Part shown: piece after piece, positions 37,853 through 40,514 of the stretch
How the letters are laid out: each line of letters begins with the position of its first letter
How positions within the stretch are numbered: the first letter of the stretch is position 1
NCBI RefSeq assembly: GCF_017641085.1
Contig: NZ_JAEPPI010000003.1
Location: 310,001-374,000 of the forward strand
From: Gracilimonas sp.
GTDB lineage: Bacteria > Bacteroidota > Rhodothermia > Balneolales > Balneolaceae
Direction of reading: 5' to 3'
DNA length: 64,000 nucleotides
Notes under the pieces: generated by a model
The model's database searches: none
Seen by the model: only the letters and a program-made list of their open reading frames with translations
What the model was told of the DNA's origin: nothing
Made by a program: the position numbers and the translations under genes

Positions 37853-39028
37853 TCAAATTGAGTCCATTTTGTCTTTTAAAAGCTTTACCGTTAAATGAGT
37901 GTACTTTTCAGTCACCTTTTGACTCGAGTGACCTGCCATATAGCTTGCCTCAGCCGTATGAAAACCTTTTTCAATCCAGGTAGTTACGGCTTGGTGTCGC
38001 ATACCGTGTAAAGTACGAGAGGTTGGAATTCCAGCTTCCTTACAATAGCGCTTAAATTCCCGATACACTCTCATCCCACGAACCGGTTGGCCTTTTGTAT
38101 TTCCACCCGTGTAAATAAACACATAGTCACTGGGGCTTATCTTACCACGAATCTTTAAATACGCATCCAGTTCCTTTTTTAATTCATTGATGATTGGAAT
38201 CAGCCGTTCTTTTCGGCCTTTGGTGGGTGGTAGTGATATGTAGCTTAGCTCTCCATTTTCATAGATCAGATTTTCACCCTTCAATCCGGAGTAGGATAAT
38301 TCTGGATCATAAGCCGCTTCATGTTTTCGGAGTCCACCATAGAAGTACAAAGACACAATAGGCTTGAACCAATGTTGAACCAAATTAGGGTCAAATTCGG
38401 GCAAGTCTTTCTTTCTGGATAACTCTTCATCGAATTTCTTATAAAGAATTCCAAGTTCTTCCTCAGAAATCATTTTAGGCCGGGTATTTTCTCTAATTCG
38501 GGGCAGATCTTCTTTTAGCATAGTGAAATAATCTTTCTCCACAATGTTCTTTTTCAGCAGAAACTTCCACCAAGATCGAAAATGTCGGAAGTAGTAGTGC
38601 CTTGTTGCTGAAGTAATGCCCTTCTTGAAGATTACATTTTCAAAATGGTAGCTCAGTACATTTGTTGGATGCACATCCGATAACTCATTTAATTCCACAA
38701 AATGATCTAAAGCTCGCTGGTAGGCTCCAATGGTTGCCGGGGAAAGATGGTTTTTTGATTTGTAGAATAATTCAATGGATTCACCCACTGTATTGCAAAG
38801 AACAGTTTCTTTCTGCGTATTTCTTTGCAATTCTTTTTTGGGATCGAAACCATTTGCGAAGGGATTGATCCTGCCCAATGATTCCAGCTTTTCCAGTTCT
38901 TTAAGCATTTTCTCGGCCACGTCTTTATGTCGGGTGCCCAATGCTTTTCGAGTAGATTTCACTTTTCCGTCAACAGAAGTTCTCCAGTTGATCGAATAAT
39001 ATTTGCCGCGTTTTGTTAGAAATGCCAT
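37853..39028 (-). CDS. Tyrosine recombinase/phage-type integrase
   Basis: 391 residues. N-terminal Arm-like domain (GKYYSINWRTSVDGKVKS), SAM-like core-binding domain about 90-190, and catalytic domain with Arg in YGGLRKHEA, Lys in PPTKGRKERLI, HGMRHQ (HxxR), and HSSQKVTEKYTHL (His and the nucleophile Tyr). It sits 225 bases from a tRNA gene, on the same strand, as in integrative elements that use a tRNA end. It reads away from the tRNA toward the metal clusters. A decayed relative with the opposite orientation lies at 40153. Confidence 0.93.
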   Translation of the reverse strand: MAFLTKRGKYYSINWRTSVDGKVKSTRKALGTRHKDVAEKMLKELEKLESLGRINPFANGFDPKKELQRNTQKETVLCNTVGESIELFYKSKNHLSPATIGAYQRALDHFVELNELSDVHPTNVLSYHFENVIFKKGITSATRHYYFRHFRSWWKFLLKKNIVEKDYFTMLKEDLPRIRENTRPKMISEEELGILYKKFDEELSRKKDLPEFDPNLVQHWFKPIVSLYFYGGLRKHEAAYDPELSYSGLKGENLIYENGELSYISLPPTKGRKERLIPIINELKKELDAYLKIRGKISPSDYVFIYTGGNTKGQPVRGMRVYREFKRYCKEAGIPTSRTLHGMRHQAVTTWIEKGFHTAEASYMAGHSSQKVTEKYTHLTVKLLKDKMDSI

Positions 39029-39253
39029 AGTAGTTTCCTTTTTAGTTGAGAGTTAGAAGCGACTCTCAAAAACCTGAACTACTTACTTTTTTCATGTACA
39101 CCAAGATGTACACCAAGAATGGGAAAATTAGGGAATGAATTGTACACTTTTGTTCCCTTCCATTCGATTACAAAAGTAAGTAAATGAGCTTTTTTTTAAA
39201 GGAGGAGGGCAAATAAGGGGGTATTTAAACCCTGAGATCGTTAATTAAAAAAG

Positions 39254-39327
39254 TGGGCCTGGCAAGACTTGAACTTGCGACCTCTCGATTATGAGTCGAC
39301 TGCTCTAACCAACTGAGCTACGGGCCC
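39254..39327 (-). tRNA. tRNA with CAT anticodon (Met or Ile2)
   Basis: A 74-base cloverleaf: acceptor GGGCCCG with CAGGCCC, D-arm GCTCAGTTGGTTAGAGC, anticodon arm with CAT in ACTCATAAT, variable GGTCG, T-arm GCAAGTTCAAGTCTTGC. Position 6:67 is a C-A mismatch in the acceptor stem. No CCA is encoded. CAT may be elongator Met or lysidine-type Ile; I cannot decide. Likely attachment site for the adjacent integrase. Confidence 0.9.
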
Positions 39328-39796
39328 TTGTATGTTTAAAGCCAATGTCATTTTACTGATGACGCCAATTTTAGCTTTTTGTACCCAAGGTTGTACCCCA
39401 GATAACTTGCCAAAAACGATTGTACCTCTTGTTAAAAAAGGTTATCGGTTTATGTGTTCTTGTTAAAGACACCGGCTTTCCTTTTCAGGTCGCTTACAAA
39501 CTGTAAGCGCGCCAAAGATAAATATCTTAAAACTCAGAGTCGAATGTTTATGAACCAAATTTTCAAATAAACCAGATCTTTTGTTCTAAGAAAAGGCTTC
39601 CAAATTTAGCTTTTAAGGCTCTTGATTAAATCTGCTGGAATAAATGTATCCTAAAATCTAAAGTGCAACTAAATGAACGCAGATGAATCGTCCTAATTAT
39701 TTCAATGAAACAGCAACTATATACCTCCTAATCGAGGGCGACTATTGATTAAAAGTAACCTCATATAGTAAAAGCCGGAAAAAGTATCTTTTTTTA

Positions 39797-40081
39797 TGTT
39801 TCAATGTTTCAAATACATAAAAAGTAACTCTACGTATACATATTCCCTGTTTTTCTTGAAACATTTTATGAAACATTCATGAAACAGGATGAAACATTGA
39901 TACTTTTTGGTGAAACAGAAATGTTTCATTCTTGTTTCAAGGATAATGATCTATAAGTAATTGTTATTTAATGGCTAATCATTTTTAAAGAATCTACTAT
40001 GAAACATGCATGTTTCAGGAAATGTTTCATAAAAATCGAGCTTTAAATATGAATAAAGATCGATTTTAGACTTTTGAAACA
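39797..40081. repeat. Iteron-like array of TGAAACA/TGTTTCA
   Basis: Thirteen exact copies of TGAAACA or its complement, starting at 39797, 39805, 39857, 39869, 39880, 39890, 39911, 39922, 39933, 40000, 40011, 40023 and 40075. Within clusters they are 10-12 bases apart, one helical turn, and occur in both directions. The region is very AT-rich and without genes (the space 39328-40152 holds nothing else I can see). Looks like an array for a binding protein: excisionase/integrase arm sites, or an origin-type iteron set. Confidence 0.72.
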
Positions 40082-40152: not shown

Positions 40153-40372
40153 TTCAAAAAAGAACTGGAGGTGTATTTAAAAGTTCGTGGAATGAGATAC
40201 CAAGCTGTAACTAATTTGGATTGAGAAAGGGTTTCATACGGCTGAAGCAAGCTATATGGCAGGACATTCAAGTCAGAAAGTGACTGAAAAATACAACCAT
40301 TTGACTGTGAATAGACTTAAGGATAAAATGAAAGCTCTCTACTGGTTTATAAATTTATATGAGATGAAGTAG
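40153..40372 (+). pseudogene. Internally deleted integrase remnant
   Basis: Translates as KKELEVYLKVRG joined directly to GMRYQAVT; in the intact recombinase at 37853 these two segments (KKELDAYLKIRG and HGMRHQAVT) are separated by about 35 residues, so there is an internal deletion. After a 1-base shift near 40218 it continues in register with GFHTAEASYMAGHSSQKV, keeping the catalytic Tyr region, to a stop at 40370. Opposite strand to the intact gene. Only the C-terminal part is left. Confidence 0.85.
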
Positions 40373-40420
40373 TCATGATGAAATCTGACAGTCTAGTTAG
40401 ATTTCATCATGACTACTTCA
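40365..40420. repeat. 22-bp perfect inverted repeat
   Basis: The arm 40365-40386 (begins TGAAGTAGTCATGATG) is the exact complement of 40399-40420, with a 12-base spacer. It starts in the last codons of the integrase remnant. No T-run on either side. Confidence 0.85.
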
Positions 40421-40514
40421 CATCAGAATATTCGAAATTTGTCTAATTATGGATTTTGTTTATCGAATTATGTTCCATCTTTCATGGATAGAATTAATTA
40501 CATATACTTGAAAC

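Follow-up and report, generated by a model that had tools for sequence, protein, structure and literature searches.

The locus examined here raises the question of what function is served by a dense array of the 7-bp word TGAAACA, present in both directions (TGAAACA/TGTTTCA) at positions 39797-40081 of the window, i.e. the whole stretch of 64,000 nucleotides that was analysed (G000:C3:310001-374000). The initial annotation, made from the sequence alone, had counted 13 exact copies in these 285 bp, and all of them were recovered at the same positions; no copy with one mismatch was found within 39797-40081, and a single extra exact copy lies outside the array at 39706. The density had been judged far beyond chance and this judgement is borne out, as a mean of only 0.1 sites per 285 bp is expected at the local composition and the maximum reached in 5000 simulations was 3. 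The steps of 10-12 bp that had been described are also present, inside the sub-clusters of the array. In the rest of the window, no 7-mer occurs more than five times in any 285-bp stretch, and a second TGAAACA/TGTTTCA cluster of this kind was not found in the rest of the genome. The features of the locus are as follows.

37853-39028, minus strand: tyrosine integrase at the end of the left-hand neighbour element, 88% identical to the right-end integrase of the G083 element
39095-39145, no strand: direct repeats (TGTAC/TTGTAC) between the tRNA and the integrase gene, candidate arm sites of an integrase
39253-39327, minus strand: tRNA-Met (CAT), left attachment end of the array-bearing island; the same tRNA bounds the related proviruses
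39253-64000, no strand: part within the window of an island of ~58.8 kb that extends from the tRNA-Met to a 39-bp copy of the 5' half of the tRNA at C3:~408021
39379-39425, no strand: TTGTAC repeats on the opposite side of the tRNA, candidate second arm
39797-40081, no strand: array of 13 exact TGAAACA/TGTTTCA sites, putative replication origin (iterons)
39797-39811, no strand: outlying pair of sites, both TGTTTCA, with an 8-bp step, then 45 bp of 73% AT
39857-39939, no strand: first iteron set, five direct sites (steps of 12, 11, 10 and 21) and two inverted sites (steps of 11 and 11)
39940-39999, no strand: AT-rich spacer between the two iteron sets (78% AT versus 57% for the window), candidate melting region
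40000-40081, no strand: second iteron set, + - - (steps of 11 and 12), with a last + site 52 bp further
40211-40336, plus strand: C-terminal fragment of an integrase of this family, preceded by a broken frame

The array had been described as lying beside an integrase. There is indeed an integrase nearby (37853-39028), but the tRNA-Met separates it from the array and it belongs to the element located across this tRNA; a copy of the tRNA-Met bounding this left-hand element was searched for over 80 kb and was not found. Within its own island, the array is separated by 470 bp from the attachment end at the tRNA-Met, and the far end of the island carries a second integrase (C3:406665-407831) adjoining the 39-bp tRNA copy. 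In a circular form of the island, integrase, attachment site and array would fall within ~2 kb. Just past the integrase fragment, positions 40368-40421 hold a near-perfect long inverted repeat (GAAGTAGTCATGATGAAATCT ... AGATTTCATCATGACTACTTC).

The cargo of the island includes copper/heavy-metal efflux genes, multicopper oxidases and a type ISP restriction enzyme. A 9.2 kb stretch of metal-efflux genes (C3 ~393000-402500, +43449 to +52625 relative to the array) shares 98.9% identity with provirus cargo in G083, a genome of another genus; such DNA therefore moves, and this transfer was recent and horizontal. Virus-body proteins of the related proviruses, used as queries, matched no gene of the island part in the window, of the island or of the genome. 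The capsid-type proteins, the ATPase and the large methylase-helicase, all present in the related proviruses, were not found in the island. Helicases of clades A, B and C (see below) were found neither in the island nor in the genome, an absence that is not absolute since the assemblies are drafts.

The same array was found in related elements by a three-site pattern search, each match then being read individually. In eight places, it lies within a conserved body of ~25 kb that starts at a tRNA-Met (CAT). The order of genes in these elements, whose ends were deduced from repeated tRNA sequence, is tRNA-Met, CI-like repressor, CHC2 primase, a helicase of 771 aa, the array (4.6 kb from attL), a HTH-like protein of ~75 aa, genes of transglutaminase-like, membrane and ATPase type, a methylase-helicase of 2409 aa, proteins of capsid type and a lytic transglycosylase. 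The integrase gene occupies the extreme right of the element (+35770 to +37206 in G083) and is closely followed by the next tRNA-Met. Several of the proteins match those of Salisaeta icosahedral phage 1 (SSIP-1) in the same order, namely the transglutaminase-like gp34 (39%), the ATPase gp40 (37%), gp54 (36%), gp45 (24%, E 8e-16) and gp47 (22%, E 3e-10), and the elements are therefore SSIP-1-like proviruses. The 2409-aa protein (L049, 6558-13787) combines a RelA/SpoT-like domain, an Eco57I-like methylase and a SNF2-type helicase and is the counterpart of SSIP-1 gp43.

The arrays of these proviruses keep the order, direction and spacing of the sites of the window: an inverted pair, ~50-64 bp, three or four direct sites 10-12 bp apart and 14 bp, followed by one direct and two inverted sites, ~58 bp, + - -, ~45 bp and +. 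Between the window and G001, 90 of the 91 site bases are identical versus 103 of 194 spacer bases (53%; Fisher 5e-18). The word is thus kept while the surrounding sequence is not. The site at 39857 is intact in the window, whereas the G001 group has the degenerate form TGAAACT at this place. The initial reading was to be refuted if homologous elements lacked the array or if it were unconserved simple AT-rich sequence; neither is the case, and chance or simple AT-rich sequence is ruled out as its source by the simulations together with the conservation of sites versus spacers.

The helicase encoded immediately upstream of the array was searched for in 128 genomes of the order, which gave 24 matches in 18 genomes. 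At all 24 loci, the array is the strongest 7-mer cluster and directly follows the primase-helicase gene, 38-63 bp past its stop (51 bp in the main group), and the same position was found for the four clade B helicases. The word differs between loci while the site positions remain nearly constant. Clade A helicases (771-808 aa) are followed by TGAAACA, TTGAAAC, ATGAAAC or AGTAACA, clade C helicases (704-712 aa) by CTAAGAA/TCTAAGA or GGTTAGA, and the fused helicases of clade B (915-927 aa) by GGTTAGA and ACGTTAG.

A comparison of near-identical proviruses locates the change. The helicase of L197 (CTAAGAA) is 96-98% identical to those of L205 and L200 (GGTTAGA) over columns 40-600 (550/560 and 538/560) versus only 64-65% over columns 600-681 (52/81 and 53/81), where it shares 70-75 of 81 residues (86-93%) with other CTAAGA-type helicases. 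At the DNA level, the region from about -400 to +330 of the helicase stop is only ~55% identical, against ~95% before it and 92-100% from about +370 onwards, which delimits a block of ~730 bp. The C-terminus and the array differ as one block and thus act as a single cassette. Between L197 and L205/L200, the small protein encoded downstream has an identical HTH part despite the different words, which rules out this protein as the word reader. Judging from these alignments, the helicase C-terminus is most likely the part that reads the array word. The joint change of C-terminus and array could also reflect their linkage in one recombination tract rather than recognition and, since linkage alone could move both, the co-variation is strong evidence but not proof. 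The swapped region is predicted to be a winged helix: in an AlphaFold model of moderate confidence (pTM 0.69), the C-terminal region of the G001 helicase has the order helix-strand-helix-helix-hairpin. A fold search with the G001 helicase, the homologue to which the finding of a SaPI Rep/Cch-like initiator fold applies, gave as best matches Cch of SCCmec (Z 20.4) and Rep of SaPIbov1 (Z 16.1), with the alignment reaching residue 751. Sequence comparison of the helicase with PDB entries or with phage records gave no match, so that its link to known proteins comes from the fold search only, and neither the helicase nor one capsid-type protein found relatives in viral_contigs.

These data suggest that the array is very probably the replication origin of a family of integrated, tailless, membrane-containing SSIP-1-like viruses of Balneolaceae and that it works like the pri-rep-ori module of phage-inducible chromosomal islands (PICIs). 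The conserved layout after the helicase gene, the co-variation of word and C-terminus, the likeness of the helicase to SaPIbov1 Rep and Cch and the position of PICI origins together argue for an origin of the PICI type and not for integrase arm sites. A set of replication iterons of an integrative element was one of the readings offered by the initial annotation, and it is the one upheld by the location of the array after the primase-helicase gene in 24 of 24 related loci and by the co-variation of the word with the C-terminal domain. Replication would proceed in the following way. Copies of the virus-encoded SF3/MCM-like helicase would bind the 7-bp words through their C-terminal winged-helix domain, the steps of 10-12 bp placing them on one face of the DNA helix. 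The AT-rich stretch between the two sets of sites would melt, and the helicase would load there and, with a separate or fused primase, start the replication of the excised circle.

The resemblance to PICIs is one of position, architecture and fold. In PICIs, the origin directly adjoins the 3' end of rep and invariably comprises two sets of iterons with an AT-rich region between them (PMC6092414). Likewise, the arrays lie immediately 3' of the initiator gene in all 24 relatives and in the four clade B loci, and in the window two iteron sets (39857-39939 and 40000-40081) flank 60 bp of 78% AT; together with the Rep/Cch-like fold, this is the organization of the pri-rep-ori modules of PICIs and SaPIs (SaPIbov1 Rep, EcCICFT073; PMC6092414). 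Unlike in PICIs and SaPIs, the module is found here in proviruses of tailless membrane viruses and not in satellites, its sites keep their arrangement whereas the word changes along with the C-terminus of the helicase, and only the origin is present in the window, without primase or helicase. No switch of GC skew was seen at the array, a result that is uninformative and that was also counted against the origin reading.

Other known systems share parts of this scheme. SCCmec Cch, also found on an integrating resistance island, is the best structural match of the helicase (467 residues) but has only 12% identity to it, the likeness being one of protein fold. The PLE satellites of V. cholerae are islands whose replication from an iteron origin is restricted to phage infection (PMC7145576), but they have their own initiator RepA whereas none was recognised in the island of the window. 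SSIP-1 itself has homologues in the same order as the proviruses, and the strongest 7-mer cluster of its genome (NC_017983) consists of eight copies of TGGAACA (L139, 16054-16218). This array of a similar word speaks against the model, as it lies inside a different gene, gp27, with all sites in one direction, and as a homologue of the helicase was not detected in SSIP-1, whose genes are rearranged. The TGGAACA sites of gp27 are a probable origin of SSIP-1, laid out like the lambda ori inside gene O. The alpha protein of phage P4 is a primase-helicase initiator that reads short repeated words in both orientations at two separate sites (ori and crr). It resembles the system described here in its type of initiator and in its short repeated words, but here all sites form one block that directly follows the gene.

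If the array is indeed such an origin, a conserved origin is identified in a group of viruses known from one isolate (SSIP-1), and it is assigned to the PICI/SaPI replication class. The loci also form a natural domain-swap series (one layout, six words, matched helicase C-termini) in which recognition between initiator and origin, and its switching, are directly testable.

In the window, only the origin part of the module is present: an initiator gene was found neither next to the array nor elsewhere in the genome, and since the genome has no helicase of either type, this copy is without its own initiator, which was weighed against the model. Like a satellite, the island has an integrase and specific attachment ends (the ends being deduced from repeated tRNA sequence); it is not classed as a PICI because pri and rep genes of its own were not found. 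Helicase-less arrays are also present in G004:C14, G063, G067 and G077. The array of G004:C14 lies near a tRNA-Leu and near a gene weakly similar to Phage_rep_O, a neighbourhood counted in favour of an origin, with BrxB/BrxC ~14 kb away (L064). BREX genes (BrxB, BrxC) were observed 8-14 kb from arrays without an adjacent helicase in both G004:C14 and G049:C72 (L064, L241), the latter array being ambiguous as a helicase-less one because a 777-aa SF3-like gene lies 4 kb away. G063 and G067 have kept a module of tRNA-Arg, integrase and array, with integrases that are 97% identical and different cargo. In three of the five carrier genomes (G004, G063 and G067), the same word is also found in a provirus that does have the helicase.

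The recurrence of helicase-less arrays suggests that islands gain from a virus origin, either by replication in trans or by titration of the helicase. There is a slightly better than even chance that these orphan origins still serve their islands in one of these two ways when a cognate virus is present. The same origin could instead survive in the window as the dead remnant of a decayed provirus without present function, a reading whose chances are a little short of even. The lack of matches to the helicase or other virus genes in the genome, the broken integrase fragment just right of the array and the size of the island, which at 58.8 kb exceeds the SSIP-1 genome (43.8 kb), all favour decay. 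Against it, all 13 sites are intact, including 39857, which has degenerated in the G001 group; arrays without a helicase are found again in other islands, with several words, the module being kept in G063/G067 while the cargo differs; and a helicase-bearing provirus with the same word is present in three of five carrier genomes. Going further, and only tentatively, orphan-origin islands may be minimal replication parasites that consist of a tyrosine integrase, an attachment site and a copy of the helper origin, lack their own initiator and carry metal-resistance or BREX cargo. Activity of a provirus or virus with a matching word would then lead them to amplify or to deprive the virus of helicase. 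If so, switching of the word through exchange of the C-terminal domain and of the array would be a means of virus escape. Islands carrying metal-resistance and BREX genes, with an origin as their only remaining virus part, would offer a possible new route by which resistance or defence genes exploit or block viruses.

Three readings other than an origin were weighed. It is improbable that the array is a set of operators, bound by a regulator of the early-to-late switch of the virus. Its position between the helicase and the structural genes, i.e. between early and late genes, would suit such a role, regulators often use several palindromic-like sites, and a gene for a small HTH protein comes after the array. 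However, the HTH part of this protein is identical where the word differs, two spaced iteron sets around an AT-rich stretch suit an origin better, and the array is kept in islands that have no genes to be regulated. It is very unlikely that the array is a packaging site (pac/cosB-like), read by the packaging machinery and kept by packaged islands. Its retention in islands without virus genes and the occurrence, in two unrelated groups of tailed-phage contigs, of TGAAACA arrays upstream of terminase genes would be consistent with packaging, but the word co-varies with the helicase and not with the packaging ATPase, which is encoded several kb away (>15 kb in clade C), and the island of the window exceeds the SSIP-1 genome in size. 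The arm-type sites for integrase and excisionase suggested initially were rejected as very unlikely: although the window array lies close to the tRNA attachment site and integrases are found near most helicase-less arrays, in intact proviruses such as G083 a distance of 4.6 kb separates the array from attL and one of ~37 kb separates it from the integrase end, TTGTAC repeats rather than the array flank the core on both sides, and the word follows the helicase type.

These TTGTAC repeats, paired about one helical turn apart, occur on both sides of the tRNA-Met in the window, G005, G004:C23 and G083 (all the related elements checked), and from their placement they are probably better candidates for integrase arm sites than the TGAAACA array.

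Similar words are found elsewhere. The TGAAACA triplets of other bacteria (52 genome matches) comprise mostly three or four sites near unrelated genes and were judged to be due to chance or to other regulators. Unrelated tailed-phage contigs carry TGAAACA/TGTTTCA arrays upstream of terminase genes, with seven sites beside a LexA-like gene in L080, L081 and L083 and with 11 sites in L084 and L086. One Paraprevotella MAG (L090, L098, L104, L108, L113, L115, L126 and L131) has many dispersed intergenic TGAAACA clusters with 10-bp steps on several contigs. Finally, a conserved + - - TGAAACA triplet lies beside homologous response-regulator genes of Poseidonibacter and of another Campylobacterales genome (L096, L107 and L136) and is likely the operator of a regulator.
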